Shown: positions 13,726 through 63,730 of the stretch, one piece after another
How positions within the stretch are numbered: the stretch's first letter is position 1
Layout of the letters: the number at the start of each line of letters is the position of its first letter
Origin: Geosiphon pyriformis
Taxonomy: Eukaryota > Glomeromycota > Glomeromycetes > Archaeosporales > Geosiphonaceae
Reading direction: 5' to 3'
DNA length: 64,000 bases
NCBI GenBank assembly: GCA_016748015.1
Contig: JAAOMT010000040.1
Coordinates: 62,001 to 126,000, forward strand
The notes under the pieces: generated by a model
The model's input: the letters and a program-made list of their open reading frames with translations, nothing else
What the model was told of the DNA's origin: nothing
Database searches by the model: none
Made by a program: the position numbers and the translations under genes

Positions 13726-14429
13726 ATGAGTGGTTGAGTCGAAAAGACAGGCTTTTTAGAGGCATTTTAGGAATCTTCTGATGTTAACTCTCTTTCATCC
13801 TTGTTAATATTTCGTGCGGCATATCTCCTTTTTAATCCTATATGTTCTTATATCAATTTTGAAGTTGAAAATTTTAAATATATTGAAAATGGTTTTACAA
13901 TGTGGTTTTAAATGAATTGTAATATTGATTAATAAGCTTTGGCTGATTTTCGAACATTCCACAATAAAATGCACATTTCATATTATTAAAATTAATTTTG
14001 CTTTTTGACATTTTATAATATTAAAAAAAAGTTTAACAAATATTTTATTGTTAGTGCTTTATTTTGTTTAAAAAACACTTATTAATAATAAAAAATATTA
14101 TATAATTGGCTTAAAACAAATTTATTATTACAAAGTAAGAGTTTTGTTAACAAAATTTTGGCTAAGAATAAGATAAAACAAGATTAAAAATAAAAATTTA
14201 TTTTATGTATTTTTGTTTAAAAACAGGTTTTTGGTGAATTAATAAGCTATTTTAAAAAAAATCAAGTATTTAAGTTTAATAATAACTATAAATTTTAAGT
14301 TTTATAAAATGGTTTTAAAATTAATTAAAAAAAATTATGTATTAATTTATAAAATTTCAAGTTTATTGTTATGTACTATTTTTTCAAAAATTTATTATAA
14401 ATAAAACAGTTTATTTTAGTTTTTGTTTT
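13726..14429. other. 3' flank of DUF7918 gene passing into AT-rich repeat
   Basis: The first 200-250 bases look like ordinary 3' UTR and flank. From about 13990 onward composition becomes extremely AT-rich. A T-rich stretch with TTTTTGTTTT at 14410-14429 resembles sequence at 21209-21229 just beyond the other end of LINE-F and may be its target-site duplication, but both are low-complexity. Confidence 0.4.
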
Positions 14430-26446: not shown

Positions 26447-26529
26447 TTAAAAAATATTTTTGTCTTAGATTTAAAATAATAATTAATTAATTATTATAAA
26501 TTAACAAAATAAATCTTTATTTGAAAAAA

Positions 26530-29500
26530 AAATTTATAATATAACTTTATTATTATTTAATATAATACAATTGTTCTAAGTTCTAAATTAAATATAATTT
26601 ACATATATGCTATATATAACTAGTTAAGGCTATATTATATAGCTATAATAACAAAAACATTAAAATTAGCATTAGTAAAAAATAAAAACTTAATTCTAAA
26701 TCTAAAACCAATAGCTTGATTTTTAATTATATTTAACAAATACACCAATTCTTTAAAAGTATAAGTTTGAAGTTTTTAAAAAAAAATCCATTAAAATTAC
26801 TAATAAGTACAAAATCAAATCTCTTTAACAAAGCATAATATTTAAAATTAAGCAATTATATACTTTTTCTATGCCCTATAACTAAATTACAAACAAAATT
26901 AACCAATTATAACAAGACAAATTTGCCATTAGTAAAAACTAGCTTGGTTTTAATAATTTAAAAACTAAACACAAAACTTTTATATAAAACAATATAAAAA
27001 CTATTATTATTAATATTAAAAATTAATAACTAAAAAATAACCAAAAAATTTACAATAATATCTGTTAAAAATTTTTAAAAACTTACTTTTTTAGCCAATA
27101 AACTAACATAAATAAAAATTTCAAAACTATAAACAAAGCTATAATTGGATATTTTTATTTCATCATAGTCTAAACACAAGATTTTGGAATAATATTTATT
27201 ATACAATTGTTTTTTAGTAACAATTAGAAGTTAATTATACAGAATTTTCAATATATAAATATGTAAACATATTAAGTTTTTGCTAATAAATTCCAATATC
27301 ATATGTAAATTAAAATGTTATATTAGAAAAAAAACAGTCTAGTTAATATTATTATAAAAAGATATATTAATTATATTAACATTAAAACTTATTTTTTAAA
27401 AGACTCAATTAATAATATTATTTAATAACTTGATAAAACAATAAGTATTACTTAAAATAACTTTGCTATTTGTGATCAAAAACTGCTTTTTAATATTAAA
27501 AAACAACACCAGTTCAGAAAAAATATAGCACTAGTCAAACTATTGGCATATTTATTATTCTAAATACTAAAATATTTCTTAATTTTATTCTATTTTATAT
27601 AAATATTTCTATTCTTAATAATGTTAATAATATGATAATATTCAATTTAATACAGATTGTAAAAGTTTAAACTGAATAAATTCAACTTGGTTTAATATGT
27701 ATTCAAAGCAGCTTGACTATTTAAACATAACAAAACACTTATAAATAATAAAATATATTTAAGAGCCAATATTATAACTTGTAATTTAACCAAAACTAAA
27801 AACAAAAAACCATAAGTTTTAATTCCAATTTTATTTTTTTTATTTTTAAATTAAATTATAGCATCATTTCAAACTTAAAAAAAATCAAAATCTCTTATTA
27901 TACTATTTATAAAAACTGTAAAATTTAATATTAGTTTTTAATAATTTAGAGTAAATAACCACAAAATCTTTTAAATTTAAAACACTTGATCTAGTTAAAA
28001 AATCATTTAATCTAAGAAAAATCAATAAGATTACTAGTAATAATAAAATTAAAAACCAACAAAAACCAAAAAAAACTAGGTTTTAAAAGTCTAAATATTT
28101 TTAATAATAGAACTTTTTTTATAAAAAACATTTACCATAATAATTTAAAAGCTAATTAACAAAAATTATTCTAAAATGCTTAAGAAATTTGATTGTTTTA
28201 AAATACTCTAATTAACCAAAAATATTCAAAACTAGAATATTACTTTTATACCAAAAAGCATTAAATGTATTAATAATAATAAAAACAGATATTAGAGAAA
28301 AAGAACTTATTATTTAAATTATATGCTTATACTCCTTGTTTTTGAGTTAAAGCCAGAGCTGCTAGACAAAAAAATAAAGGCTTAATTTGTTTTTACCAAT
28401 TTTATAAAGTCGAATTAGTAAAAATAGTACAGCCAGAACATTTTTACCAAGAATTAAAAATCTTATAAAACACAAAAAAGCAAACAATACAGACAAAAAA
28501 ATCATTAATAGAAAAGATTCTAAATTTAACAAAAAAATACAATAGATTGCAAAGAGTTCAATTAAATATTTGTAAGTTCATAAGTCTGTGCCTAAACAGT
28601 CTGTTTAGTATTCTAAAAGTATTTATAAAAAACACAATTAATGTAATTTTTTTTTATTTAAATTTGTTCAAAAAACTTTAAATTATAAAGAAAAAAGTAA
28701 TAAATAATTTTATTAAAAAAATTTCAGAATAAGTTTGTCTTTTATTTAAGACATTTCTTAATTAAACAATTTTACTAGTTGTAATAATTTTTGTTAACAA
28801 AACTGAACTATATTTTATAACTTATGATAGGCTATAATACTATAAAAACCAGATATAAGAATTGTTTATTTGAAACTATCTTACATAGAACCAATAATAT
28901 AAAAAATTTGATGTCTTTATTTGCTTTCTTAAAACTAAAACCAGAAAAACTAGCAGTTAACAAAAATATTCCCAAGTATTTATAAGACTTATTAGACTTT
29001 ATAACAGAAACAAAAAAACCATAAATGCTTAATATAATGTTTTTAATTTTTATATTAATAAATATAACAACAGTTTTGTTTATATTAATAATAATGTTTA
29101 TATTATCAAAAAATTTATTAGCAATATTTAAAATGTTCTAAGTAATAGTATAACTGTTTTTAACTTATATTATATTATTAACAAAAGCACTTGTCATAAA
29201 ATAAAAAGTAAAACTAATATTGAACTCTATTTTGCCAGTTTTTGTCATAAATTTAGAGTTTATATAATAACCAAAAACAAATTTATGCTTCTTAATTTTA
29301 CATAAAAAAAAGCATAAAAAATATACTACAAAAAAAAAGAAAAAACTTTATCTTAATTTAAGCTATTTTATATTATATATATATTAAATAAACTAAAATT
29401 TGTTATTACTTAATTAATATGATTATTGTAAATATAATTAAAAAATTGAATAAATTTGTTATATATCTTGATTTTTTTTAAGCTCTTTTTAAGATGTTTT

Positions 29501-30240
29501 TATCTAACAGAATTATAAGTTTTGTATATGTCTTAAAGCACTAATTAAACTTTTCTGTTTTTTTCCAAAGCATTTTTCATAACTAATTTAATAGTAAAAA
29601 TAAGAAACTATGTAGATATATTTTTTAAAACTAAAAAATTATCTTTTTTGAGCATATTGTTACCAGTAAAATTTTAGTTAGTAATTAACATGAAATTATC
29701 TTATAATTTCTATTATTAAATTAGTACATACTATTATTATTTCAATTATCATTTATTATTTAATCAAATTATTAAATATTATTATTCAATTAATAATCCA
29801 AACTCTTATAATACTATTTAGAGACTTTTCATTAGACAATATATGTTACAACAAAAAAATATCATAAAAAAAGACAAAATGTTTAGAAAAATTGTAAGTT
29901 AATTGCATAAATGTTTTAACAAATAAGATTGCTATTTTTTTTTATGATTTTTGACCAATCTAATTAGAAAACTGTTCTAGTTTTCTGTAGTAACTGCTAT
30001 TAATATTTATAATAAAAAACTTTGTAACATGTTTACTATTTGGCTTATTAACTATTAGTAAATACTTTTTATAATAAAAAACTTTAAATTAATCAAAATA
30101 TTCTAATATTTGAATCCTATTTCTCAAACTGTTTGTGCCAATACAATTAAGAATAGAGTTATAGAACTCTATATCTTGAGTAGACAAAAATTAAGAGTAA
30201 GCACTATTTTTATTATGAAAAATTTCTTTTTTTTATCTAT
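26530..30240 (-). mobile_element. LINE-H, decayed 5'-truncated relic
   Basis: AT-rich minus-strand relic. The left end (about 26560-26700) aligns loosely with the LINE 3' UTR. The segment around 29280-29420 aligns with the RT region of copy C near 25110-25230. Similarity fades near 30180-30240, giving about the same extent as copy C. No open frame of note remains. Confidence 0.6.
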
Positions 30241-34539: not shown

Positions 34540-36402
34540 ATGAGTGGTCCTAGTGTTAAGAGAAGGTCAGCCAGAGTTTTGACCACTGGTTCGGTTGGTG
34601 GTGGTTCAGGTTATAAAATTAAGAAACCTTCTGGTGGTGCTAAGCTCTCAAGTAGTGGTACAACTCTTGAAAGTGGTGGGTCTGGTCGTGTGGTTGGGCA
34701 GTTTAATGGCATGGATACTGATGAAAAAGCTTCCGAAGGTGAAGGAGTACCTAATTCCAAGATGAATACGCCTCAAGCCAAGCATTTCAATAATAGTGCA
34801 ATTATTGGCTCTCCTTTCGGCTCTATTAATTATGACATGGAAGAGAAAGAGGAAGTTTTCCTTCTTCTTTGTAAGTCTTTCTCTTTGGATAAGGTGTAAG
34901 TGGATCCCAAAATTATTAAAACTCAAGTGGAAGTGACCGTAAAGAAATCATTCACTTTGGACATTAATCTTTCGGCTGTAGAAAAGAAATCGGCAACAGC
35001 CAAAACTCAGGTCATAAGAAAATTATTTTCAGGAATCAATGGTTTTGGGGGGGCCACTACCTCTTCAAAATTTGAAGGGATTATCTGATCAACGTTTACT
35101 TCATCAGAAAGCATGGAAAAGGCCGTGTCATTGGCCAGAGAAAATAACATCATAGTAAACAGTGATCTCAAGAGACAAGGAATTTACTCAGATCGAGCCA
35201 TAGTAATCAAGGAAATTTCTATGGATACACCAAAAGAAATGATTGTCACCGCAGTATCCAAGTTTGGAGAAATTAAGTCGATCAAAATCCAGTTGATTGG
35301 TTTATGGCAAAAGACTGTGGTAGAATTTGCTAAACTAGAACAGGCTGTGTCTTTGGCTGCTAGGTGGTTCTTTCTGATTAGTAAAGACTCGGTTTGTGTG
35401 GCTATGATGATAGACAATTGTGAAACTTGGGCATCTAGAGATCAGTTTAAGGCACTTTTGTTCACTTTGCCAGTGGAAACTACTGCTCATGATCTTGGGG
35501 ATCTTCTTGAAGGGGGTGATGGAAAAACTTGTGTCATAAATCGGTCATTGGAGACTGGTAATAGGGTCTGCTGTGCTGTTGTTTGTTTTAATTCTGATGA
35601 GGTTTTGGAGTTAGCTTTTCGCACAGAGCCAATCTTTGGTGGTGTGAAACTCTCATGGGCTAGGCTGGATTTGGTTCACTGTGAACAGTATAAGAAGTTC
35701 AGTCATTCTGCCTTGGAATGTAATACTGAGGTTGCGTCAGTTCTTAAACCTTCAAAGTTTTTTATAAAACCTGCCAACCTAGATACTTGTCTCTAGCTGG
35801 CCAAGTTGTATACAAAGAAAAATGTACCAATCTCTCATCCTGTTGTCTTTGGTGGCAAATCTTGGGCCCAAGTGGTCTCAGTTGCTTCAGTTTCTTATGG
35901 TTTTCATGCTGGTTCTGGTTCCGGTTCCCCACTTTCTGGTGCTCTGAGTTCGGGTGGGGCATCTTCTCCTCTACTTGTGGTCAATTCTTCTTTGGATGCT
36001 CACTTAGTGCTTCTGGAACGCTCTGTGAAGCTTTTGTCTGATCAAATTTTGGACATTTTTTCTTGTCTTGACAATATTGGTTCAATACCCTTGGCACCTT
36101 CCTCTTAAATGGTTCCTTCTGTGGTTGTTTTTCAGTCTCCAACTTCTGTTCCTCTTGTGGTTGCAAACTCTGACTTGGATTTTGACATGGCAGTTGATGA
36201 TTTTGTTGTCCAGCCTATTTTTTTCTCTCCAGGTGTTGCCGATTTGCTCTTAGGTCTGAGTAGTTCCAAAGTCCTGACTTCCAAAGTTGGTGGTCTGAAA
36301 TCGAAGTTGGTTGCCCTCGACATCTTCGTTGGTTTGATTTTGGCTAAGTTAGATCAGTTGTGTGCTGGCTCAGGTTCTTCAGTTATCTCTTCGTCCCAAT
36401 GA
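34540..36402 (+). pseudogene. LINE-A ORF1 (RRM-like, zinc-knuckle RNA-binding protein), four stops
   Basis: A single frame from ATG 34540 to TGA 36400-36402, interrupted at 34897 (TAA, from a Trp codon), 35086 (TGA, from Arg), 35794 (TAG, Gln in copy B) and 36106 (TAA, Gln in copy B). The N-terminus is Ser/Gly-rich and basic. Two RRM-like blocks follow: AIVIKEI to KTVVEFAKLEQAVSLA (about 35190-35370), and ALLFTLPVETTAHDLGDLL to VKLSWARL (about 35450-35670). Next comes a CCHC knuckle in which the second Cys is Tyr (CEQYKKFSHSALEC), then a Ser/Val-rich tail with a C-terminal LKSKLVALD heptad-like stretch. ORF1 proteins of this kind bind LINE RNA. No frameshift is present. Confidence 0.85.
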
Positions 36403-39400
36403 CCAGTTTTATTTGGAAAATTGCCATGTGTAATGTTAGGAGAATGAACAATCCTGCAAAACAGGAGGACATTTTTTGTTGGCATAAGGAATCTGGTAGT
36501 TCGATCTCAATTGTTACAGAAACCAAGTTGTGTTCCAGTTCACAACCATAGATCATGAAAAAGTTTAAGAGTGTTCGGGTTTTTACATCTGGTCTGGATG
36601 TTGGGTTTTATGGAACTGGTGTGGCCATTTTTGTGAACAATTCTCTGGCTTGTCATGTTTCTAAAGTTGAAAAGGTAAAGGGCAGAGTTCTTTCAATTTG
36701 TCTTTTGTTCAAGAACAAGCTTTCTGTGTCTGTCATTGGGCTTTATGCCTGTGTGTCTGGTGGTGACTGTTTTGCTCAGGCTTCTGTTATTAATTCATTC
36801 ATTGCTGATACTGTCAACAAAAGTTCTTTTGTTGTTTTGGGTGGGGACTTCAATGAAGACAATTCAGTCAAGGGGGCGAGTCTTAAAAAATGTTTAGGTT
36901 TGGGTCTGGTTAATGTTTTTGGTGGTTATTCTCTAGCTAGGATTCCTACTTGGAGCAATTCAAGAGGCATTAGCAAGGTTTTGGACTATATTCTAGTTAG
37001 TGACTCTTTGATTTCAGCTGTCATGAATCGTGATGTTAGTTCTGTCTCAGAATTTTTTAACACGGATCACTTGGCTGTCTCGATGTCTATTGGACTGGGT
37101 GGTCTTCTGGATGCTCATTTGACCAGCATCCACAAGCATGCTAATAAGGATCACTGAAAATTTAAGATTAAGGATGCTGATGAGAAAAAGTGGGCACATT
37201 TCAAAGAACTTTCTGAGTGTGCACTGTTGGGTTCTCTGAATAGATTCAAGACGGCTGAGGATGGTAGCAACTTGGATGGAATGTGAGAAGTACTAGCTGA
37301 AGCCATAACTGCTTCTGCTGAAAAAAATTTTTCAAAACATTGGTATAGTGAATTTGATTGTGCTAAGAATAAACTTTCTTCTAAATTTTCCAGATTAGAG
37401 CTGTTGGTCGCCAAGTTATTAAAAGTGCTAAGACTGAATGATGCAGTGGGCTTTAATCATCTGGCTGATACTTGGTTTAAAGCTGACCCTTCCAAAGCTT
37501 CCAAAGTTTGTGGCATGATCGGGAATGGTGTGGGTTTTGCTGACTTGATAAGTCATTTTTCAAAGATTAGAAAGCAATATAGAAAGTCCAAATATTATGA
37601 ATCTGAAGTGGCCAAAAGATCTGCTATCAGAGACACAATTGATAAGCGTATAAAAAAGTTTAATATGAACAAAGGTGGGATGATTCGAAGCATCTTGGAG
37701 CAGCCCTTTCACAAGGTTGTTCTGGACTATTTGGTTGTTGGTGATTCTTTTATTTTGGAACCTAATGAAGTGAAGCTCAAGGTGAATGACATCATGGTTA
37801 ATTGGACCAGAAAGCGGAATGCTCTTCCTGTCCTGTTTGGTCCCTGGGCACAACAATATGCCCTTTTGGCCTATGTTAATGATGGTGCTTTTAGTCTGGT
37901 CATGTGTAATATTACCATGTGTGAGATGTCTTCAGTTATAAGCAATCTTCCTAATAGCAAAGCTGTTGGTTTGTCTGGTATCACCAATGAACTTTGAAAA
38001 CATGCTGGCTGTTTAGTTTTGGAGTGTTTGTTGTCTTTGCTGAATTCTTGTTTGTGTTTTGGTGATGTTTCAGTCCATTGGAAAGAGGCCTGGGTGTCCA
38101 TAATTCCTAAGCCTTATGATTGGGATGGCATTTTGTCAAATACATGGCCTATTGCATTAATTGAGACGGCCAGAAAGATTTTGTCAAAAGTTCTTTCAGA
38201 CAGGATCTCTCTTGCCTGTAGTAAGTTTAATGTTCTCCACAGTAACAACTTTTCTGTTCTCAAAAGCACTTCCACTCAGTCACCAATTTCAGCTGTGGGT
38301 TCAATTGTGGAGGATGTTTTGGAAAAAGGCCGTGAACTTTGGCTGGTTCTTCAAGACATGCGCAAAGCATATGACTCTGTTGGTTGGCCTTATTTGAAAG
38401 CTAGTTTACGCCGTATCAAAATGTGTGGCAAGTTCATCAAGTTTTTTGGCAACATTCACAACAATTGCTTTAACAGAGTCATGACAGATTTTGGCCTATC
38501 TGATGGATACAAAATTCTTGATGGTTTGAATCAGGGTAAAGTTTTCTCATCTCTTCTATGGAGAATTTTTTATGACCCCTTGTTATGTGAAGTTGCAAAA
38601 CAAGATCATTTGTGTGGTTATTGGATCAATTCAAACTTTGTGGCAAAGACTGGAAGGATTGAGACTAGTGGGGGTATAACTTCTTTTTTTACGGCTGGTG
38701 CCTTTGTCGATAACACTATTTGGATGGGAAATGGACAAGCCTCTACACAGCACATTCTTAATATGGCCAGCAAGTTTTTCCTCATCAATAATATTAACAT
38801 AAACAATGAAAAAATGGTTGCCATTCCTATCAACAAAAGAGTGGGGGTTCCTGTTTTGTTTATCAATGGCCAGGCTATCGCTGTTGTCAATCCTGATGTG
38901 AGTCATCGATATTTGGGTATTTTCTTGTCTACTGATGGTTTGTCTAAACTGAGTCTTGCCAAAACCAATTCAGATATTAGGTTCTTCTCAAATATGATTC
39001 TCCGGAAAACTGTCTCTGATAAACAATTCTCTTATCTGGTTTTAGCTGGTTTGCAGCCTATAGTCAGTTATCAGACACAGTTTAGTTTTGTTTCCAAAGC
39101 TGTTTGTCTAAAATGGAACGTTCTGATTAGAAAAAGTCTTAGGTTGAAAGCCAATTTGCTGAGAGACTTTCCCAATGAGGCATTGTACCACCCCTTTCTT
39201 TATGGACTGAAATCTTTTGAACAGTTGCAGGCTAAATGCAAGGTAGCTTCTATTGTGCAATTTGCGAATTCTTCTGGAATTCTTGGCTGTCTGTTCGAAC
39301 ATCAATTTTTGGATTTACAGGTTTTGTACTGGACTCTGCTGAATCCTCTTCAATATCCTGTTAAGCTGAGAGTAAACATTTCAAACAATTTTCTAGTGGG

Positions 39401-41084
39401 TGTAGTTCATATATTTCTTGACAACAAGCTGTTTTTGGATAACAGGCTTCCCTGTGTCTTTCGCTCTCCTGTCCATTTCCCAATGTCATTGGTATTGGGT
39501 GATTCTTTGTATTTCAATGTGGTTCACTCCTTGAAAATTGCTGGTGTGGCATATGGTAACCAACTTCTGGACAAAAAGAGTTCTGTTGTCAGTTGGCGTA
39601 TGTTTTGCTGATGGAAAAGACTTGGTTCTAGAGGCTCCATGCCTTTATGGTTTTTGAAAGCCTTTATTCATTTGAATAATTGTTTGCATGCTCCCCTTTC
39701 TGCGAGTTTAGCTTCTGTCTGTGCTAATGTTTTGGATTCAACATCTTTTGCCAATATTCGTGAGGAGATTCATGGATTGTGGGCTGATAAGATTGATGTT
39801 TATACTGATGGTTTTCTTAGAGGCTTGGGTACGTTTCAGGTGACGTGTGGTGCTGACACTTATTTTCCTAGCTTGAACAAAGGTTTAGGGGTGGAGGTAC
39901 ATGGTGTGCTGTCTTTGACCCTGGCTGAATTACAGGCTGTTGCTCTGGCTCTGGAGTGTGTTTCTGCCTCTGTTTTAGTGGCTTTATACACAGATAGTTA
40001 AGCGGCTATTGATGCATGTGTGGCCGAATTGGGTCTCTTATAGCCGGATTGTTGCAATAGTTGCTGGATAGAAAGGCACCATGTGGTTGATTTGATTAAA
40101 TCCAAAGATCTGACTGTCTGCTGGGTTAAAGTCAAAGGTCATGCTGGCATTGCTGGTAATGTTATGGCTGACATTTTTGCTGAACAAGCTGCACACTCTG
40201 GGGTCTTTCTTCCTGTCAGAATTAATTGTAGATATGTGATTGCTGATGGCAGGCCAGTTTTTGGTAATGCCTGCTATTTTGTACATAACATTTTTCATTC
40301 CATTTGCAAGTTTCAATGAGAAGTGGGTCCTGGCCAAGAGGTTTTGTCTTGTTTGTTTGGTCTGGTTGTCAATTGGAATAGTATCACTCTAGTTTGGCAC
40401 CCTGACTCTCATATGCTCTCTGGGAGTACGTGTCAAGCCACTGTTACTCTTCATATGTATTTCATAAAAGCTGTTCATTTCAAGTTGCCTGTTGCTGTTC
40501 GAAAGAGGCTATATAGTAAGGATTACTCTGATGTGGCATGTCTATTTTGTGGTGATGTGGAACTTCCCGATCATGACTTTACTTGTGTTAAGGATGCTTC
40601 TGTGCAGTCAAATATTTTGGGTGACTTTGGTGGTTTGTGGAAAACTCTAATGGGTCCTGATCTACTATTGCCGTCTTTTGTGTTGTGAGATCTCTCTCTG
40701 GAGGTGTTTGATGTTGGTTTGTATTCAGTTTTTTGCAAGGAATTTGTTCTCAAGAGTTGGATGGATGAGGCCATTGCTTCTCTCAGTGACAAAAAGAAAG
40801 CAGTCTCTGTGATAGTGGATTTCATCTGTTGTTTAGCTAAAAGTCATAGGACGAACCTTTGGTTTTTTAGAACTAAGTTCAAATCTGACATGGAGAGAAG
40901 TGGTTTGATTGGTAATGATGTTGTTGTGGCCAGTGCTCTTGGTGTGGGTGTTCTGTCTTTCTCAGCTAGCATGGTCTGTCTTACTGGTGTGTTGGATTCT
41001 CTTGATGTCAGTTTTGGTTTTAGGGATAGGTTTTTGTTTTTGTCTGGTGCTGTTCATAGGGTTAGTGTTTCTATAAGTGTATAG
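36399..41084 (+). pseudogene. LINE-A ORF2 (endonuclease, RT, RNase H), nine in-frame stops
   Basis: One frame of 1,562 codons from ATG 36399, whose ATGA overlaps the ORF1 stop, to TAG 41082-41084, with no frameshift. APE endonuclease: ISIVTETKL, VVLGGDFNED (about 36835-36860), VLDYILVS, NTDHLAV. RT: KAVGLSGITNEL, WVSIIPKPYDW, DMRKAYDSVGW (about 38355), LNQGKVFSSLLW, and FVDN at 38703-38714 in place of the FVDD of copies B and D. RNase H: VYTDG (about 39799), LAELQAVALALECV, KVKGHAGIAGN. C-terminal zinc motif CLFCGDVELPDHDFTC (about 40539-40586). Stops at 36549, 37155, 37284, 37995, 39609, 39999, 40041, 40317 and 40686; most fall on codons that are Trp, Gln or Arg in sister copies. Confidence 0.9.
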
Positions 41085-41221
41085 TGTTGTCTTGATTGGC
41101 TTGAGTGGCTAGTCACATGTAGCAAATGTGTGAACCATGTTTAGTTGGCTACTTTTTTTTGTAACTTATTCTAGACTTTGGTTGGGCTGCACTCATTAAT
41201 AAAATAAAATAAAATAAAATA

Positions 41222-41237
41222 AAAATTACTTTTGTTT
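41222..41237. repeat. Right target-site duplication of LINE-A
   Basis: AAAATTACTTTTGTTT, directly after the (AAAAT)n tail; pairs with 34368-34383. Confidence 0.8.
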
Positions 41238-42400
41238 AAAATTTTGAAAAACTTTGAATTTTAATAAATAAATAAATCAAGTTTAATTTAAATTTAACAA
41301 TAAATTTTTAAAAGCTTTTGTTCTGTAGTTTTAACAATAGTATAATTAAACAATATTTAATATATTTTAAAAAAATTTATAAAGTTTATAAGATATTTAA
41401 ATTTAAAGCTGTTAAAAATTTATGTATTTAGAATACTATTATTAAATACATAAAAACTTTTACTAATAATAAAAATTTGATAATTAAAAACATATTAAAA
41501 CAGTTTATTAAAAAAATTGCTTTAAATTACTTAGTAAATAATAGAAAGTTAATATTAAAATCTAGTATAATTAAAAACAAAATAGATTTAATTATAAAAA
41601 ATTGAATTAAAAAACATATAATTAAAGATATAATTTTTTTTTACTAACAAAAACAATTTGTTTTTTTGGTTTATGTTAATAATAATGTATTTTCTAATAT
41701 TATAAAACAAATTATTTTAAATAAATTCTTGTGAATTATTAAAAGACTTTTTAAAAAAAACTACAGATTTTTTTAAGATTACTAATAAAATGTAAAAACA
41801 TTGCAATAATTTATTTTGGTTTGGCTTTTAAACATGTTAAATATATATTTACTAAAAAAGACAGTTCTTAATACTTGATAAAAAACATAAATCTCAATAA
41901 TTTCAAAGCTATATAAATAAAAAAATCTGATAAAAAATATTAAACCAATTGCTTTAATTAAAATTATAAAAAAAATTTTGTTGAAAATTCTATCTAATTG
42001 GATTTTTATAGTTTGTAACAAGTTTAAAGTTCTAAAAAAAACAACTTTTTAATATTAAAAGATATATTAATTTAATTTTTTATCTTTATTATTAAAATTG
42101 TTGTTAAAAATACTTTAAAAAAAATTAAAATATATAACAAATTTATCAAGTTTTATAAATATATTTACAATAATTGTACAAATAGAGTTATAATTAACAT
42201 TAAATTAATAAAAATTTATATTGTATATAATAATTTAAATTAAGATAAAATATTTTTATCTTTTTTTTAAAGAGTTTTTTATAATTTTTTTTTGTATAAA
42301 ATTAAAAAAATATAAATTTTTATATAAGTACTAAGTAGATTTTAGATTTGTTATAAAAAACTGGCAAAATTAAATCTAATATAAAATTAATATCTTATTT
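41238..42400. other. AT-rich spacer between LINE-A and LINE-B
   Basis: No gene. An open piece at 41782-42021 (minus) reads like decayed transposon protein, but I cannot place it. Composition matches relics F and H. Confidence 0.4.
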
Positions 42401-42409
42401 AACTGTTAA
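42401..42409. repeat. Left target-site duplication of LINE-B (short)
   Basis: AACTGTTAA, repeated at 49201-49209 directly after the (TAA)n tail of LINE-B. At 9 bp in AT-rich sequence this is suggestive rather than certain; its position agrees with the 5' end expected from copy A. Confidence 0.55.
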
Positions 42410-42591
42410 GATAAATTGTGTCAATACACAATTTTTATTATTCTTTTTTTCTCTCTTACTTCCAAAAAAACCCCAATGAGCACTTTTTCTGAGAAAAGAA
42501 GTTTTTTGTTTTTATCTTGTTAATATTATATCAACATTTCTTTAACTAATAACCCTTTTGTCATAAATTTGAAGGCTGTCTCTAGTAGCAG

Positions 42592-44449
42592 CATGTCTAG
42601 TAAGAAGACTCCTAAAAGTGTGTTTCACAGTTCTGCTGGTGGTTCCTTTTCACAAAGAAAAAAAACTTCTCTTGGAAATATTAAATATTCTGGTGATAAG
42701 AAGGATATCTCTTTGAAGTCTGGTTCTGGTGCTAGTGTATATTTTGATGTAGAGAGCCTATCTGGTGATGATAAAGATATTAGTATGTCTGGTGGTTTTG
42801 ATGGTTCTCTCTTGGATTCGGCTGTTAATACTCTCAAAGTTAAATGGGTGAATACTGGTGCAAATTTTGGTTCTCCTATTGGTTCTTCTAACTTTGAAAT
42901 AGATGAAGAGGTGAAGTCTCTCCCACCACCCCTTAAGAAAAAGATTCCTTTAGATAAGATTTAGATTGATCCCAAGATCATCAAAATTTCTGTAAAAGTG
43001 TCAGTCAAGAAATCATTTGCTTTAGACATCAATCTTTCGGCTGTAGAAAGAAAATTGGCTACATTAAAAACTCAGTTTGTTAGAAAATTTTTTTCAAAAA
43101 TCAATGGTTTTGGAAAGGCCACTACCCTCTCAAAATTTGAAAGAATTATCTGATTGATGTTTATTTCATCAGAAAGCATAAAAAAGGCTGCATCATTGGC
43201 CAGAAAAAATAACATCTTAGTAAACAGTGATCTTAAGAAACAAGAAATTCACTTAGATCGGGCTGTAGTAATTAAAGAAATTCCCATGAATACGCCAAAA
43301 GAAATGATCATCGCTGCAGTATCCGAGTTTGGACAAATTAAGTTGATCAAAATCCAACTTATTGGTTTATGGCAGAAGGCTGTGGTAGAATTTGCCGAAT
43401 TAGAACAGGCTGTGTCTTTGGCTGCTAAGTGGTCCTTCCTAATTGGTAAAAATTCTGTTCATGTTGCTATAGCGGTAAAAGATCGTGATACTTGGGCATC
43501 TAGAGATCAATTCAGAGCACTTTTGTTTACTTTGCCTGTGGGAACAACTGCCCATGATCTCGGTGATTTATTGGATGGAGCTGGTAGGAAAACTTGCATA
43601 ATCAACCATTCCTTGAAGACTGGTAATAGGTTTTGCTGTGCTGTGGTTGGCTTTGAGACTGATGAAATGCTGGAATCTGCTTTTTGCACGGAACTAATCC
43701 TTGGCAGTGTGAAGCTTTCTTGGGCTAGATTGGATTTGGTTCAGTATGGACAGTGTGAGAAATTCAGTTATTCTGTTTTGGAGTGTAATGCTGAGATCAC
43801 TTCTACTTTTAAGTCTTCCAAGTCTTTTAAAAGGGTTGTCTCTGATGAAAACCACCTCCAGTTGGCCCGATTGTATGTGAAAAAAGGTGTGCCTATTTCT
43901 CGACTGGTTGCTTTTGGTGGCAAGTTATGGGCCCAAGTAGTCTTGTTTACACCCTTGTCTAATAATCCTCATTTTGGTTTTAATCCTGGTTTTGGTTCCT
44001 TCTCTTCTAATGCCTCAGGTGTGATTGGTCCCTCTCCTCATATGGTTCCTGTTAGTACATCTTTGGAGGCTTGTTTTGCTTCTTTGGAGCATTCTGTGGA
44101 GCTTCTTGTGGATAAGATGTCTGGTATTGTGAGCAAACTTGAAAATTTGGTCTTGATGCTCCTAGCTCTTGCCTCCTCTTCTCAGAATTTGGTGGTTCCA
44201 GTTGTGGCAAATGTGGAAGTTGATTCAGACATGGCTCTAGATAATCCTAAGCCAGTGCTTCTTCCCTCTTTTTTGGTTTCCTTTAATACTTCAGAATTGG
44301 GTTCAAGTAGTTCAAAAATTTTAACCTCAAAAATGGGCTGTTTGGAGTCAAAGTTGATGGCTCTTGAGGCTTTGGTTTGTTCAGTTTTGGTGAAGTTAGA
44401 TCAGATGTGTATTGGCTCAGGTTCTGCGGTTTCTTCATCATCTCAATGA
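42592..44449 (+). pseudogene. LINE-B ORF1, two stops
   Basis: A single frame from ATG 42592 to TGA 44447-44449, broken only at 42962 (TAG) and 43151 (TGA), the same two sites that are hit first in copy A. The stretch 43154-44449 is open for 431 codons. RRM-like blocks: VVIKEIPMNTPKEMIIAAVS to KAVVEFAELEQAVSLA, and ALLFTLPVGTTAHDLGDLLD to SVKLSWARLD. The CCHC knuckle has lost its first Cys and its His, both to Tyr (YGQCEKFSYSVLEC). The C-terminal part has leucine-rich LESKLMALEALV. No frameshift. Confidence 0.85.
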
Positions 44450-47400
44450 GTAGTTTTGTGTAGAAAATTGTGACATGCAATGTTAGAAGGATAAACAATC
44501 CTGCTAAGCAAGCTAATATTATTCATTGGCACAAAGATATGAACAATGTGATTTTTATAGTTACAGAGACAAAGTTAAGGTGTAAGGTTCACTCTTAGAT
44601 TGCTAATAGGTTTTCAGGTGTGCGTGTTTTTGTCTTTGGCTTGAATTTGGGTTATCTCGGTTCTGGTGTAGTTATCATTATAAATGTTGCTTTGGCCAAA
44701 CACATGTATAGGATTTCTGAAGTTTTTGGTCATTTTTTTGCTATCAAGCTGCTCTTCAAGAACAAACTTTCTGTTTCTGTTTTAGGTTTGTATGCTGATG
44801 CATTTGTGTCAATGCATTTCTCACAAGCTGATAAAATAAATGCTTTGATTGCTGGTGCTGTAAATGAATCTTCTTTCATAATTTTGGGTGGTAACTTCAA
44901 TAAGGATGGTTCTCGTAAGAGTGCCAGCTTCAAGAAATGTGGTGCATTAGGCCTGGTTAACCCTTTCATCAATAATGTATTTCTGAAAACTCCAACATGG
45001 AGTAATTTACGGGGAGTGGTAAAAACAATTGACTATCTGTTTGTGTCTCTCAATTTGGTCAATGCTATAATGGATCGCAATATTCTGGGTGTGGTCAATT
45101 TCTTTGATACTGATCACCAAGCCGTTTCCGTGTCACTTGGTTTGGGTGGTCTTTTGAACACTCATTTGTGTTTTATTCGCAAACAGACCAATAAGGATCA
45201 TTGAAAATACAATTATAATAATGCTGGTGGTGCTTTGTGGTCAAAGTTTAAGGAAGAGATGATGGCTAATGCTGCCATGTTCTTTGATGAGTTTTTGGAT
45301 GTCAAAAGGCATTCAGATCTGGATGTTATGTGGGATGCTATTCACAAAACCTTGTGTTTTTTAGCAGATGTGGTTTTCAAAAAAAAATGGTTTAAGGAAT
45401 ATGATGGTGTCTTTACCAAGATCTCATCCAGGTTTCATAGATTGGAGCTCCTGGTGTCTAAATTGGTTAAAGCTTCCCAGTTAATCGATCGTGATGAGTT
45501 TATTTTGCTGCTGGATACTTGGATTCGGCTTAATTTGGTTAATGCTTCATTGGTAAAATTTTTGTTTCTCTCTGGTTCCCCATTGAATGATATATAGTCT
45601 GTTCTTTTCAAGATCAGAAAATTTTATTGTGCTGGTAAGTTATTAAATTCGAAATGTGCTGAAGAATCTTGTATCAGGTCTGCAATCAATAGGAGGATGG
45701 AAAACTTCAAGTTTAACAAAGATCACACTATCAGGAGTGTCTTGGAATGTCTCTTTTGCAAAGTCATTTTAGATCATTTGGTGGTGGGTAAGGAGTTGTT
45801 CTTGGAGCCTGATCCTGTTAAAAATAAAGTGGATGAGATAATGGAGGGTTGGATGCAGAAGCAAGATGTGGTTCTTGATGTGCCTGAAGATTGGTCCTGT
45901 CAGTATCAGCTTTTGGAACATGTTTTTGATGGTGCCTTTGCTAATGTTATGGACTGTGTTAATTTTGTTGAATTATTTGGTGTGGTTTCAAATCTGTCTG
46001 ATAGGAAGGCTGCTGGTCTCTCGAGCATCTCTAATGAACTCTGGAAGCATTGTGACAATTCAGCTCTTGATATGCTCTTGGTGCTCATCAATTCTTGTCT
46101 TTCTTATGAATCTGTTTCCAGTGCTTGGAAAGAGACTTGGGTGTCGATGATTCCTAAGCCTTATGAATGGGAAGGCATGCTCACTAACACTTGTCCTATT
46201 ACTTTGATTGAGACAGCTTGCAAAATTCTTTCCAAGATTCTTTCTAACAGGATTTCATTCACGTGCAGCAAGCATAACGTACTTTGTGATGACAATTTTT
46301 TGGTTTTAAAAGACACTATGACTCAGTTCCCCATTTTTGCAGTTAGTTTGGTAATCGAGAATGCTATAAAAAAGAACCATGAGCTCTGGCTGGTTTTGCA
46401 AGACATGCAAAAGACTTATGATTCTGTTGGTTGGGACCATCTTAGGAATAGTCTGGTTAGAATCAAAATGTGTAGCAAGTTTATTTGGTTTTTTGGGAGT
46501 ATTTATGGTGGTCGGACCAACCAGATTATGACCAATTTCAGGTTGACAAGTGATTATCATGTGCATAATGGTTTGGACCAAAGGGAGGTTTTCTCATCTC
46601 TCTTTTGGCAAATATTTTATGATCCTCTTTTGTGCAAAGTTAAGAGACAGAAGAGTGTGTGTAGATGCTGGTTAAATTCTCATTTTGTTTTTAAGACTGG
46701 TTATGTAGAATCTCAAGCTGGGTTAACTTCTTTCCTTGCTGCCAGTGCTTTTGTGGATGATATGATTTAGGTTGGTAGTAGTCAGATGGTAACACAACAC
46801 ATTCTAAATGTGGCTAGCAAGTTTTTTAGGGTTAATAACATTTCAATTAACAATGATAAAACTGTAGCCATTTTTATTAACTGCCAGGTTACAAATTCCT
46901 CTCTTTTAATAAGTGGATTACCTATCTCTGTAGCCAATAAGGGGGAATCTCATCAGTATTTGGGTATCTTTTTGTCCACTGAGGGCCTTTTTAAACCCAG
47001 TCTGGCCAAAGCTTACTTGGACATCAAGTTTTTTGCCAATCTTGTGTTAAAAAAGACCATCTTTGATAAACAATTTTCGTATTTGGTGTTTTCAGTTCTT
47101 CACTCTATTGTGAATTACAGAACTCAGTTCAGTTTTGTTCTTCCTAGTATGTGTACCAAATGAGATACTATGATTCACAGGGGTTTGAAATCAAAATCTG
47201 GTCTGCCTTTAGATTTTCTCAATGATGTGCTGCATCACCCCTCATTTTATGACTTGAAAACTTTTGAACAAATCCAGGCTGAGCACAAAGTAGCATCTGT
47301 TGTTTGTTTTGCGAATTTGGTTGGCATTTTGGGTCATTTGTTTGCTTATAGATCTCATGACTTGCAAGTTTTGTGTTGGCATCCAATTCATCCCTTAAAT

Positions 47401-49101
47401 TTCCCTATTTGTATTGGTATTGGTGTTTCTAATAATTATTTGGTGGGCTTGGTTCGTATTTTTCATGATTATAATCTTTCTCTGGATGGCTTCAGAGCCA
47501 ATGCTTTTTGTCTTCAAAATGGAACCCCTATGGTGTCTGTTCTTGATGAGTCTAAATTTGTTAGATGTTTTCTGTCTCTTTGGCATTATGGTATTGTTTT
47601 TGTGGACCAGTTTCAGAACCACAGGGGAGCTAATTTTACTTGGGCAACTTTTAAACATTGAAAGAGATTGGACCCACATGAACCAGTTTCTGTCTGGTTT
47701 GATCTTTCAGTTGCTTTTATTAATATGGTGGCTCCCATCTCTGTTACATCTTCTTCTGTTAATGGGATTGTCACTCGAAATATCCTGGATTCAATTAAAT
47801 TTAATAAGATTTGTGGTCATCTGCTTAATGTCAGTTCTGATAGTATTTTGGTATTTACTGATAGTTTTTTGGCCAGTTTGGGTACTGTTGGTATGCGGGC
47901 TGGAGTGGCCACTTTTTTTAATGGTGTTGATTTGGGTTTAGGTGTTGTAGTTTCTGGTTTGGTGTCTTCTACTATGGTGGAATTGTAGACTATTGCTTTG
48001 GCTCTTGAGTGTGTTCCCCCTTCCAGTTCTGTTCATTTGTTCTCTAACAGTCAGATGGCTTTGGATGCATGCAGATCTGAGCTGGGTCTAGTGGTTCTGG
48101 ACTTTCGAAATCAATGCTGGTTAGAATGCCATCACATTTCCAACTTGATTTATAATAGGAATTTGAACGTCTGTTGGTTTAAAGTCAAGGGACATTTTAG
48201 TGTTGTGGATAATAAGTGAGCAGATGCTCTTGCTGCAGCTGCTTCTACGTCTGACCTTTTTTTTCCTTTGCATTTGGATGAGTACTATATTTTGGCAGGT
48301 AATATAGCCATTTCTGGAAATTCTAGACATTTTGTTCATAACATTTTCTGTTGTATACATCATGTTGATTGAAAGGTTGGCTCTAGTTCTAAAATCTTGG
48401 TCTCCAGTTTGCATGGTAACATAGACTGGCGTAGGTCTTCACCCATGTAACATCTTGATATGTACATGACTGCTGGTTTCACTAGTAAACGTTTTGCTGA
48501 TGCTTGTATTATTGGCTGCCTGTGGCTGTTCATAAATGCCTTTATAGTAGGTCTTATCCCAGTGTTTTGTGGTGAAGTTGAATTTTCCGATCACGTTTTC
48601 TCATGTGGCTCTGATACTGCTATCTGCACCCAGCTGTTGAACACACATGCAGCTATCTAGGGAGCCCTCTCTGGTTTATCTTGGTCGTCGTCACGTCTTA
48701 TACAGCTTATGCTTTCTTGTGCCTCTGATGCTTTAGTGTGTTCAGCGTTTTGTAAGGAGTTTATGTTCAAACTTTGTTTTCAGGAAGTGGTTTCAGTTTT
48801 TGGGAACTCCAAAATTGCTTGTTGTAAGGTAATGGAATTTGTGCAAAATTTCTGTCTTGCTTTTAGGAATGAGGTTTGGTTGGTTCGTGCAAGTCACTGT
48901 GTTTTGATGAAAAAACGTGGTCTGATTTCTAGTAATGGTTCGGTTCTTGATCTGGTGCATGGCCTTTCTTCAGTTTTCTCTGCTGGGGTGATAAGGCTGT
49001 TGGGTATTGTGGAGGCTTTTGGTATTCACTTTGGCTTTCGTACACCTTGTTTATTTTTTTCAGACATTGGAGATTCTGTATCAGTTATTATAGATGCTTA
49101 G
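44446..49101 (+). pseudogene. LINE-B ORF2, about a dozen in-frame stops, no frameshift
   Basis: One frame of 1,552 codons from ATG 44446 (ATGA overlap with ORF1) to TAG 49099-49101. Endonuclease: FIVTETKL, ILGGNFNKDG (Asp of GDFN changed to Asn), TDHQAV. RT: SSISNELWKHC, WVSMIPKPYEW, DMQKTYDSVGW and the catalytic box FVDD intact at 46749-46760, followed by a Trp-to-TAG stop at 46768. The RNase H part begins with VFTDSFLASLGT. The C-terminal zinc motif reads FCGEVEFSDHVFSC with its first Cys lost. Other stops: 44461, 44596, 45202, 45595, 47161, 47659, 47986, 48217, two in 48361-48450, and 48658. Most are Trp, Gln or Arg codons in sister copies. Confidence 0.88.
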
Positions 49102-49694: not shown

Positions 49695-49828
49695 TATTTT
49701 TTTATTAATTTTTAATGAGTGAGACCCAAAAGCCACCTAGTGCAATACATCAAACTAAGTGATCTAAACTAGGTGCTAATCATGCACTTTCTACATGTGA
49801 CCAGTTACTCAGATTGATTAAAGCAACA

Positions 49829-52800
49829 CTACAAATCTATCAGAACAGAAACCATACTATCTATACCAGAAAAAAAGCAGCAATGTTTATGAAAACCAAA
49901 GCAGACACCAACTGTCTTAGCAATCCCAAGCAACCTAATCACTCCAGCAAAAAACATACATGACAAACCACAAGTCACAGGATACACAAAACCATCAAGT
50001 GGAATTAAACTGCCTTTTTTCATTAAAGCCCTATATTTAGCTCTAACCAACCAAATATCCATGTGGTGAGCAGCACCTAATTCTTGAACAAAATCAACAA
50101 TAAATTTTCCCACAACTTTGGCATCACCCAGAATGAATGAAGCTTTCTGAACCCAATCTCTGAACACAAAGTTTTTGCTCATAGTAGTATACAATATATC
50201 ATCAGATGTGCACAGAGAGAGCACCTGTGAGACACGAGATGAATGTAAGCCCAATCCAGAAACACAATACCACTTGGCCAGATAAGACTTGAGAATATCT
50301 ATATGAGCATCAGAATTAAATGTACAAACAAAAAAGTGGTCAGAACTTTCCACTTCACCACAGTGCAGACACAAGACACTTGAGTAGATCTTACTATACA
50401 AACATTTCCATATAGCAATCAGGAGACAGTGGTGGAGAGCCTTTAAAAAATAAAAGTGCAAACTAGCCATAGATTTACTGGTAAAGCTGGTCACCATATG
50501 GAAGTCAGAGTGCTACACCAAAGCAGTATGAAACCAGTCTATATCACCAAGTAAACTGTTATTAATAACATTAAAACCAGGACCAATCTCCTAATGAGCA
50601 TGATTAACAGATCTGAAAATCTTACGAGCAAGATAACAAATGTTCTCAAACACCACCATCCTGTTAGCCTTGATAAATCTCTTCTTAACCAAAACAGGAA
50701 GTGCCAAAAAAGAGTTCACAGCCAGACTGGCTAACTCATCAGCACATTCATTACCTATAACACCTGAATGTTTTTTTACTTTATGCCAAAAAACATCAAG
50801 CTGCTTTCCTTTAACAAAATTGATAATGCTATGCTGCTCCATCCAGCAGTGGTTGTGGAAATTTGAAGACACCAGAGCAGATTCAGTCACACACACATCC
50901 AAGGCAGCCTGACTGTCTGAATAAACCACTACTAAACTGTCAGAGAGAACACACTCCAAAGCCAAAGCAATTGCCTGCAGTTCCACCATAGTTGAAGATA
51001 CCAATCCACCAACCTTAGCACTAATACTCAGATCCAAATCTGAGAAGTAAGCAGCAGCACCACACTTCATTTCACATGAACCTAAATCTCTTAACGATTC
51101 ATTAGTGTAAACACTAACAACCCCCAAATTTGTAGAAGAGAGACACTGGCTCAATCTGGAAACCGTACCCAAGCTGCAAACATCCATAGCCTGCAAATCT
51201 TCAATGCACAAATCATCAGAAATAGAAGATCAATCCAAAAAGTCACAAACCAAAGTGAACCAAAGAGGGACAGAACCCCTTAGATCAAGTTTTTTCCAAT
51301 GACAAAAGTTTTTTCAATCAAAAATCAAACTTTTTTTGGTATATAACTGCTCAGCAAAGACGACCCCAAACTTTTTAAGAGAAAAAGAAACATTATAAAA
51401 CAAAGAAGCTCTCAGAACTATAGATATTGGTGTTCCACCAGAAAAGTGGAATGCAGAAACAGAAAAATTGTCGAGAGACATGTTATAGTCCAAAAAAATT
51501 CTAACAACATCTGCCAAAAAATTATTGACCAGACTAATACACAACCTAATCAAACAACATAGAGGGTGAATAGGTGATCAACCCAAAACCTGAAAATTCA
51601 GAGACCTATGATTGAACAAATAACCAAGAACACCACCAGCATTTGAAAAACACAATACAGAAGCCATTTTGCACTCAGTCTGCAACTGCTCAAAAGATTT
51701 CAAGCCATACAAAAAAGAATGGTAAAGAGCCTTATTCGGAAAGTCTCTTGAAAGACAAGTCTTAAGTCTTAACCTCCTTTTAATCAATGTATCCCATTTT
51801 ATATACACATTCCTAGAAATGAAGTTGAACTGAATCCTATAATTAACAATGAGTTGCAATACAGCTAATACTAGATAAAAAAATTGCTTGTTCAAAATAG
51901 CTTTTTTAAGAGCCAAATTGACAAAAAACTTAACATTCATATACATCTTAACCAAACTGGGTTTGGAAAAACCCTCAGATAACAAATAAATGCCAAGATA
52001 CTGATGAGACTTTTTCCTGTAAGCAATTGAAATCAGCAGACCATTAATTGACAATGATGCATTACTAACTCTCTAATTGATAGGAATAGCCATAGTTTTT
52101 TTGTTATTAATAGAAATGTTGTTTACTCTGAAAAATTCACTTGCTGTGTTCAAGATATACTGAGTGGCAGCCTAACTGCTATCCACCCAAATAGTATCAT
52201 CTACAAAAGCACCAGCAGCCAAAAACAAAGTCAAACTGCCTTGGTTTTCTATCCTACTTGTCCTAACTACAAATTTAGTATCAATTTAGTATTCACACAA
52301 ACTTTTTTGTTTCTTGACCTCACACAAAAGAGGGTCATAAAAGATCTTCTACAACAAAGAAGAGAAAACCTCATCTTAATCAAGACCATCATGTACCTGG
52401 TACCTATTAATTAAACCAAAATCAATTATAACCTAATTAACACAGTCATTGTAAATAGAACCAAAAAATCTAATAAAATGCCCGCACATTTTGATCTGAA
52501 CCAAACTATTATATAAGTGATGTCAATCCACAGAGTCATAGACTTTACACATATTTTGTAGCACAAGCCAAAGTTCATGATCCTTCTCCAAAGTGTTTTC
52601 AACAACCAAACCAATGGCAAAAATAGGAGATTGAGTAGTAATGCCCTTAAACACAGAAAAATTGTTTCCACAAAGTACATTGAATAGACTATATGTTGAT
52701 GAAATCTTGGCAGACAGCAACTTAGAAAGAATTCTATGAGCAGTCTCAATTAAAGCGATCAGTTTAGTATTTGTTAAAACATCCTCTCACTTATAGGGCT

Positions 52801-54507
52801 TGGGAATTATTGATATCCAAGCTTCCTTTTAACAACAGGGAACTGACTCACACACCAAACAAATGTTCAGAAGATCCAGAAGCAAGCTTAGCACAGAACC
52901 ATCACAATGTTTCCAAAGTTCATTTAAAATGCCAAACAAGCCAGCAGCTTTACCATCTGGTAAATCCTTAATCATATGTATCAAGTTATCCAAACTGATA
53001 GCATTTATCACACCAGAAAAAGCATTATCATTAACATAATCCAATGGCAGATATTGATGCTGCCACAAATTAGGAACACTTTTTAGCATGGTCTTTTTTC
53101 TCATCCAGTCCTTCATTATACCATCCACCTTATTCTTAACTTCTACTGAATCCAAAAGCAAACCACCATCAGAAACCAAATAATCCAATACCACTTTGCA
53201 GAATGGACATTCCAAAACACTATGGATTGTGTGGTCTTTGTTAATCACAAAACTCTCTATTCTTCTTTTAATAGCTAATCTAATGCTTGACTTCTCGGCT
53301 TGCAAAGACTCAGCAAGCTTAGAGGCACGATAAGATCTTCTCACACCACAAAGAGCAGAATAGACACAATTCAAACTCACACCAGAACTTACAAGATCCC
53401 AAACAACAAAAGCTTTGTCACTATCTATAGAAACCCAACATCTTAACAGAGACTTAAACCTGTTAAAGTCTGTCTTGTAAGAAGTCTTAACAATTTTCGA
53501 AACCAAAATCTCCAAGTTATGTAACTTGAAAGATTTTTTGGTAAACACCCTATTATAACCTTTAAATCATTTCTTCTTGAAAGCACCATTAGCTGAAAAA
53601 ATCATCACTTTGTGAACAATATCTCACATAGCATCCAGATCAGAGAACTTCATGGCTGTCTCAAACTCGTCCAAGAACATGGCAGTATTGGCTGCAGTAG
53701 TATCCTTAAAATCACTCTATTTTGCTTTATCCGCACTTTTGACATCAAACTTCTAATGATTTTTATTTGCCTGCTTGCATATTAAACTCAAATGAGTATT
53801 AAGCAAACCACTCAGACCCACGAAAGCAGAAACAGCTTTGTGATTGGTATCAAAATAGTTCTCAACATCGGCCACACTACCATCCATTACAGCATTGACC
53901 AAACTTGAAAAAATAAGAATATAATTGAAAGCTTTAGTGATACCATGAGAATTGATCCATGTAGGCATCTTGACAAACTTCCCCTTAGAGAATTAACTAA
54001 ACCCAAATCAAAGCACTTCTTGAAGCTAGCACACTTTCGGGCCCTGTTTTCATTGAAATCACCACCCAAAATAATAAAAGAGAACTTATTTACTGTCTTT
54101 GCAATAAGAGAGTTGATTTTACCAGCCTGAGAGAACCAAACCACTGACAAAGCACCAGCATAGAGTCCCAAAATCAACACAGAAAGATTATTCTTGAAGA
54201 GTAGTTTGAGAGAGAGGAGTCAACCACAAACTTTGGAAACCTTATATATATGTCTTACCAAAGAATTGTCCATGATAATTGCAATACCAAAACCCAAATG
54301 ACTAGAGTCCAAACCAGAAGTGAAAACCTGGACACCATCAAATTTATTCATGATTCATGAGTGGATCTTGCTCCTCAACTTAGTCTCAGTAACAATAGAA
54401 ATCAAATTGTTTATCTCTTTATGCCAACAAATTACATTATCCTGTTTTGTAGGATTATTCATACCCCTAACATTACATGTGGCAATCTTCCAAACTAGAC
54501 TGGTCAT
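49829..54507 (-). pseudogene. LINE-D ORF2, many stops and one frameshift
   Basis: Begins with MTSLVWKIATCNVRG at 54507 and ends with VSVLIDL at 49829. Endonuclease: ISIVTETKL, IILGGDFNEN (about 54050), PTWINSHGI, DTNHKAV. A one-base frameshift falls between about 53960 and 53995, just before PTWINSHG. RT: GKAAGLFGILNELWKHC, NMCKVYDSV (box A Asp to Asn) and FVDD intact at about 52195-52206. RNase H: VYTNESLRDLG (Asp to Asn), STMVELQAIALALECV, VYSDSQAALDV, KVKKHSGVIGNECADELA. C-terminal zinc motif CLHCGEVESSDHFFVC intact. I count at least 15 stops; three of them (AK*SDFK, AM*DIV, KK*FKGY) sit on Trp codons of sister copy B. Confidence 0.88.
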
Positions 54508-62109: not shown

Positions 62110-62111
62110 AA

Positions 62112-62154
<43 letters not shown>
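62110..62154. repeat. (AAT)n microsatellite
   Basis: About fifteen uninterrupted AAT units. LINE tails in this window are (TAA)n or (AAAAT)n, so it may mark the 3' end of an erased plus-strand copy. Confidence 0.85.
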
Positions 62155-63262: not shown

Positions 63263-63287
63263 AAAATAAAATAAAATAAAATAAAAT
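63263..63287. repeat. (AAAAT)n microsatellite
   Basis: Five AAAAT units, the same unit as the LINE-A tail, within AT-rich relic sequence. Confidence 0.85.
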
Positions 63288-63698: not shown

Positions 63699-63730
63699 AT
63701 TATAATATAATATAATATAATATAATATAA
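63699..63730. repeat. (TATAA)n microsatellite
   Basis: About six TATAA units in AT-rich relic sequence. Confidence 0.85.

Follow-up and report, generated by a model that had tools for sequence, protein, structure and literature searches.

Long repeats in a presumed arbuscular mycorrhizal fungus carry C-to-T changes in all contexts, with CpG first, in a pattern resembling RIP

The window analyzed here, a stretch of 64,000 nucleotides (contig positions 62001-126000), comes from a 124.7-Mb assembly of 406 contigs, which was searched for further copies of its elements. Gene content and composition suggest an arbuscular mycorrhizal fungus (Glomeromycotina) as host; two rRNA primer patterns had no match, and an EF1-alpha primer matched with 2 mismatches. 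Fungal genes, including one for citrate synthase, lie at 2-14 kb, and a LINE cluster spans 14 to 56 kb. The features are given below in window positions, with the basis of each assignment in brackets.

2001..14000, no strand assigned: internal control, a gene-containing stretch with citrate synthase at 3386-4186, CpG o/e 0.56-1.31, not hypermutated (ORF list, Pfam, composition)
14826..20329, minus strand: AT ghost E, GC 22%, zero CpG in 5.5 kb (purine/pyrimidine scan, composition)
22485..26512, minus strand: LINE-C, a third family with the same mutation spectrum, with RT and RNase H on a 777-aa open stretch (Pfam, copy alignment)
27073..29734, minus strand: AT ghost F, GC 17%, 1 CpG (purine/pyrimidine scan, composition)
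35113..35796, plus strand: LINE-A ORF1 remnant, an open stretch homologous to LINE-B ORF1 (ORF list and purine/pyrimidine scan)
36399..41084, plus strand: LINE-A ORF2, APE endonuclease and reverse transcriptase, 9 internal stops, 0 indels (translation, Pfam, copy alignment)
41085..41230, plus strand: LINE-A 3' UTR with a short A-rich (TAAAA)n-like tail (copy flank comparison)
41361..42334, plus strand: AT-rich LINE fragment adjoining LINE-A, matching at the purine/pyrimidine level only (purine/pyrimidine scan)
43154..44449, plus strand: LINE-B ORF1, 431 aa, weak RRM match (ORF list, Pfam)
44446..49101, plus strand: LINE-B ORF2, single frame, 12 internal stops (translation, Pfam, copy alignment)
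49743..55902, minus strand: LINE-D, CpG o/e 0.11 (ORF list, purine/pyrimidine scan, composition)

Across copies A, B and C the layout is that of an APE-type LINE (ORF1, then ORF2 with APE, RT and RNase H), with Pfam matches to RVT_1 in A and B, to the endonuclease/exonuclease/phosphatase domain (Exo_endo_phos, APE-type) in A and to RNase H in C. Two ORFs, an APE endonuclease, RT and RNase H domains and a short repeated A-rich tail are features shared with the Tad1/I group of fungal LINEs, which we presume these elements to resemble, the likeness being one of features and not of phylogeny. Homology between LINE-A copies stops near 41222, and the flanks differ in every genomic copy, which shows that the copies are independent insertions. 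The two ends of the window have compositions of their own. Positions 62001-64000 have a GC content of 10-14%, the minimum of the window, with almost no CpG and no match in the LINE scan; positions 1-2000 are ghost-like in composition (24% GC, one CpG), gave no LINE match in the purine/pyrimidine scan, and perhaps belong to another repeat class.

ORF2 of LINE-A keeps one frame from end to end, with nine internal stops (36549, 37155, 37284, 37995, 39609, 39999, 40041, 40317 and 40686) and no indel relative to the majority of 30 genomic copies, just as a sequence-only reading of this DNA had described it. The same reading had put the stops of the single-frame LINE-B ORF2 at about a dozen; we count 12, and find no indel inside 45800-48500 relative to 12 copies, the remainder being judged by frame. 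It had also placed most stops on codons for Trp, Gln or Arg, and at every LINE-A stop most sister copies do have TGG, CAA/CAG or CGA/CGG. Over all family-A copies, which contain 5-16 ORF2 stops each if the terminal one is counted, C>T or G>A changes on such codons explain 281 of 291 stop occurrences. The stops might have been ancestral and present in a consensus, but none is shared by half or more of the copies, and they are therefore derived.

Family A, as found by a DNA search of the genome, comprises 30 loci, namely the window copy and 29 others. Over ORF2, the full-length copies differ from LINE-A by 433-578 substitutions and 0-3 gaps. Relative to the family majority, a copy carries about 200-320 substitutions, of which 90-99% are transitions, and all three codon positions are affected. 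The strong C>T and G>A excess with few indels that the sequence-only reading had predicted is thus found, with 25 indels in the 30 copies (0-3 per 4.7 kb copy), copies that were chosen by alignment score, which favors intact ones.

The two transitions, C>T and G>A, are about equally numerous per copy in family A. Their direction was assessed by two polarity rules, with column states inferred for counting purposes and no sequence rebuilt. The first rule takes C as original where at least three copies retain C and leans to C>T; by this rule, a copy is changed at 18% of its C sites and 17% of its G sites, reverse transitions amount to 0.3-0.5%, and any transversion to at most 0.35%. The second, a symmetric majority within each of two family-A subfamilies, yields 11.2% for C>T and 9.7% for G>A, 0.7% for T>C and 1.6% for A>G, and 0.02-0.21% for each transversion. 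Family B, used as outgroup, confirms the polarity: at C/T sites it has C at 78% of those where family A is polymorphic with a C majority and at 17% of those where A is fixed for T, and at G/A sites it has G at 90% versus 20% for the same two classes. Family B itself shows 21.6% C>T and 19.2% G>A. In family C, the ts:tv ratio is 19, and 6 copies aligned over 2.3 kb contain no gap (substitutions to gaps 4159:0). Within copies, a search for strand-switch clustering of C>T versus G>A found none (mean z 0.49). Common ancestry was considered as the source of shared mutated sites and rejected, since the copies, apart from the existence of the two subfamilies, are nearly independent.

All contexts are mutated, CpG about three times as often as the rest and CpA least. 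In family A, the first rule gives rates of 0.40 for CpG, 0.147 for CpC, 0.145 for CpT and 0.116 for CpA, and the symmetric rule gives 29% for CpG and 9% for non-CpG sites; the corresponding rates in family B are 0.45 for CpG, 0.17 for CpC, 0.15 for CpT and 0.13 for CpA. A logistic fit identifies a G at +1 as the main factor, with a pyrimidine before the C mildly favored and an A at +1 least favorable. The CpG o/e of family-A copies is 0.24. Deamination of 5mC at CpG only is rejected as an explanation, because non-CpG C>T stands at 9%, versus about 0.17% for C transversions in all, an excess of about 50-fold. RIP indices had been expected to be positive for these copies. Instead, they have an un-RIPped look (TpA/ApT 0.69, substrate index 1.48, composite -0.79), because the order of contexts is CpG > CpC = CpT > CpA and there is no CpA preference. 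As a detector the standard indices are negative and misleading for these copies, and index-based surveys would overlook this C-to-T process.

The strength of the transition bias depends on the class of sequence. The ts:tv ratio is 12-19 in the LINE families, 8.2 in a MULE DNA transposon (4 copies, 1.3 kb, 26 substitutions per gap), 3.7 in a 0.4-kb repeat (11 copies, 14 substitutions per gap) and 2.3 in a truncated duplicate of a methyltransferase gene (50:22, 5 gaps per 72 substitutions), a series of few families with a single gene pair at its end. The MULE has 8.4% C>T and 8.6% G>A versus about 1.5% reverse transitions. Long high-copy repeats are thus affected most, DNA transposons included, if more weakly, while short repeats and the gene duplicate stay near the ordinary pattern. 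A 0.4-kb fragment (L051:225-632, L056-L065) is the start of the MULE match; it occurs in about 20 copies with 77-91% identity and near-ordinary decay. Within the window, the CpG o/e is mostly 0.56-1.31 in gene and other non-repeat stretches and 0.06-0.40 in LINEs, and the AT-rich stretch at 14-22 kb has zero CpG in 8 kb. In the gene-like 3' flanks of two genomic LINE copies (L014 and L028), the CpG o/e is back to about 1.0 within the first 600 bp. Given a value of about 0.24 within the LINE itself, this rise suggests that the mutated zone has a sharp edge at these two copies.

Comparison at the purine/pyrimidine level hides transitions and brings older material into view. The minus-strand stretches 14826-20329 and 27073-29734, with 17-22% GC, are co-linear with LINEs over up to 5.5 kb, at a purine/pyrimidine identity of about 0.80, a nucleotide identity of 0.49-0.58 and a transversional divergence of 20%; among the controls, reversed or complemented queries, no match exceeded 0.69. 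These ghosts are older minus-strand LINEs. The continued C-to-T process seems to have turned LINEs into AT-rich DNA between genes. The non-coding DNA of the window has 10-22% GC, and the ghosts suggest that a large part of the AT-rich "intergenic" DNA here consists of mutated transposons.

The recent changes show no imprint of selection. Among changes that are rare within a subfamily, nonsynonymous ones reach 1.01 of the context-based expectation, synonymous ones 1.00 and stop-making ones 0.85. The N/S of recent C>T changes, about 5,100 in number, is 1.01, so the mutations have not been filtered by coding function. When older shared sites are pooled in, N is 0.88 and S 1.25 of expectation, a degree of purifying signal, so some of the C/T variation came down from source lineages, which would themselves have drifted. 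The neutrality of the recent changes also rejects purifying selection as the reason for the absent indels. LINE-A has 259 substitutions, about 11 of them transversions, and the ratio in the duplicate gene would predict about 18 indels, versus none observed. If the expectation is calibrated on transversions, it drops to only 2-3, which makes the scarcity of indels mainly a matter of young copies. The lack of indels is due to the youth of the copies and not to selection. The earlier premise that neutral drift adds frameshifts at a comparable rate was overstated, as local neutral decay produces about 1 indel per 14 substitutions.

A search with PF00145 found about seven C5-methyltransferase loci in the genome. 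Judging by domains and motifs, L033 is DNMT1-like with BAH present; motifs place L035 and L036 as DIM-2-like, L035 with a weak BAH match, and L034 and L037 as DNMT2-like. L031 (C318:786300-791300) is a methyltransferase with exons without visible BAH. The duplicate used above as a control is L032 (C318:819200-823200), a truncated copy of L031 that lies about 30 kb away on the opposite strand and has decayed in the ordinary way. In known RID/Masc1 enzymes motif VI reads EQT or EET (PMC6709928), and AM fungi are said to have all five fungal 5mC enzyme types, RID included (PMC8298701). In our exon-by-exon search, which may have missed a gene, the RID-type motif VI (EQT/EET) was not found, every readable motif VI being ENV.

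Together, the data speak for repeat-directed cytosine mutagenesis that is RIP-like in outcome, a reading to which we assign a probability of roughly 0.57. The outcome resembles RIP with a context preference opposite to that of mould-fungus RIP. In the mechanism that we propose, long repeated elements would be singled out, either by their repetition or by repeat-bound heterochromatin, and their cytosines would become thymines on both strands and in every context, about threefold more often at CpG. A C5-methyltransferase may modify the cytosines, with the DIM-2-like L035 and L036, the DNMT1-like L033 and the BAH-less L031 as candidates. Most of the conversion to T would fall within a brief phase following insertion, as an active step or through failed repair on the way from 5mC:G to T:G. 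Each new LINE copy would thus quickly gain hundreds of C>T and G>A changes, with 5-16 stops per ORF2, and could over time become a CpG-free ghost with 17-22% GC.

The main rival is passive decay, in which very dense 5mC in CG and non-CG positions of repeats would be lost by spontaneous deamination and poor repair, with no mutation machinery at all. It owes this rank to Rhizophagus irregularis, the model AM fungus, where 32.5-49.5% of cytosines are methylated according to LC-MS (PMC8298701) and most TE loci are highly CG-methylated (PMC8647823), so that all-context passive deamination has to be taken seriously. A CpG preference of about threefold is what methylation and deamination would give, and the ghosts show conversion running to completion. 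However, the 50-fold excess of non-CpG C>T over C transversions is far beyond ordinary deamination bias, and the timing of the changes looks unlike that of a steady clock. The pair L021-L029 differs by 362 transitions and 5 transversions, and all 31 family-A pairs with at most 12 transversions (5-12 in 4.7 kb) are separated by 362-459 transitions, no pair by fewer. The load is nearly constant across 3 to 21 transversions per copy, and an error-corrected regression on transversions still puts about 85% of the mean load at zero transversion age. Load and transversion age are weakly correlated (rho 0.38, p 0.057; for private transitions rho 0.50, p 0.009), as passive decay would have it, and this leaves room for a clock-like component. 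The load looks burst-like, with a fast early phase favored over a clock, although the copies may be of one age and were selected for their likeness to A, B and C, a choice that restricts the spread of loads. On balance, we consider passive decay well short of an even chance.

Sequencing artefact, that is, methylation-dependent long-read miscalls that print C as T in methylated repeats, is improbable. It would account for transitions only in presumably methylated DNA, and for closest pairs that are about 99.9% identical in purine/pyrimidine pattern. Miscalls should recur at the same sites, whereas roughly 40% of copies are changed at each CpG and these are different copies from site to site, nearly independently. 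Frames of 4.7 kb free of indels are also unlike noisy long reads, and the ghosts show conversion run to completion over 5.5 kb alongside their 20% transversional divergence. Even less credible is APOBEC-like cytidine-deaminase editing of retrotransposon cDNA or RNA, or reverse-transcriptase error. Either would fit with retrotransposon copies that are hypermutated independently of each other, but cDNA editing changes one strand, and here C>T equals G>A; moreover, the MULE DNA transposon has the same excess, and a CpG preference would be atypical. Ordinary neutral decay under a general mutation bias towards AT, for which the GC-poor non-coding DNA of the window could be cited, deserves hardly any credence, because the duplicated gene has a ts:tv ratio of 2.3 and 1 gap per 14 substitutions versus 12-19 and hundreds of substitutions per gap in the LINEs, and because genes and non-repeat stretches of the window mostly hold their CpG.

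Of the sequence-only proposal of a targeted transition process on repeats, through RIP-like mutation or deamination of methylated cytosine, the spectrum, made up almost wholly of transitions and mostly of C>T and G>A, bears out the transition process and CpG-only deamination is excluded, while a RIP-like burst and the deamination of cytosines methylated in all contexts are not fully separable. The more specific form of repeat-directed mutagenesis, namely that a presumed arbuscular mycorrhizal fungus, outside Dikarya, has an active RIP-like mutation system that is triggered by homology, mutates all contexts with CpG first and is invisible to RIP indices, is put forward tentatively and at somewhat less than even odds.

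Both for Gigaspora margarita and for Mucoromycotina, RIP signatures have been stated as undetected (PMC8647823). Among the more than 1000 genomes screened in a 2025 study, ascomycetes alone were reported to have RIP-like signatures, with CpA preference (PMC12543289), and RIP has been proposed, with caveats, in entomophthoralean fungi (PMC11105155). Our literature search on C-to-T or CpG mutation in AM fungi found nothing. A transition-only process with another context would escape index scans, and might be widespread among early-diverging fungi. If the active system is real, a large share of the extreme AT-richness of these genomes would be accounted for, and the AT-rich "intergenic" DNA of AM fungi may largely be mutated transposons. 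Dating of repeats by ordinary divergence greatly overestimates their ages here. If, as with RIP, the system is also linked to nuclear fusion or meiosis, the mutated repeats would amount to a fossil trace of sex in the genome of a lineage that has long been regarded as asexual. The pattern offers a concrete way of testing AM fungi for repeat defence and a hidden sexual phase.

The targets of classical RIP are repeats longer than about 400-1000 bp, coding or not, and short repeats are spared. It takes place before meiosis, in the dikaryon, in the course of a single sexual cycle. The RID-dependent RIP of Neurospora crassa and other Pezizomycotina, with its DIM-2 branch, is similar to what we describe in that C>T changes occur on both strands and as transitions only, with many stops and AT-rich remnants; the few families compared here suggest a further likeness, in that long repeats of any class are affected and short ones largely spared. 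Of the classical hallmarks, we find the both-strand C>T/G>A transitions but not the CpA target with positive indices: Neurospora RIP prefers CpA (PMC12543289, PMC5381629), whereas here CpA is lowest, CpG highest and the indices negative. Neurospora RIP also needs RID with EQT/EET, and no EQT-type RID emerged from our exon-by-exon search. R. irregularis is comparable in that its methylated fraction consists of repeats and its methyltransferases include DNMT1, DIM-2 and DNMT2 types (PMC8647823, PMC8298701), but these papers deal with methylation and not with mutation, and the nanopore study with CpG only. The nearest case of a CpG type is the RIP-like hypermutation at TpCpG/CpG described for Microbotryum and other members of Pucciniomycotina (Horns et al. 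2012, cited in PMC5381629). As far as the cited account goes, Microbotryum is similar in that transposon hypermutation is centered on CpG and read from copy alignments, but there it is confined to TpCpG and light, at 1.7 of 35 target sites per copy (PMC5381629), whereas the elements studied here are mutated in all contexts and at about 10-18% of all C/G sites in each copy.
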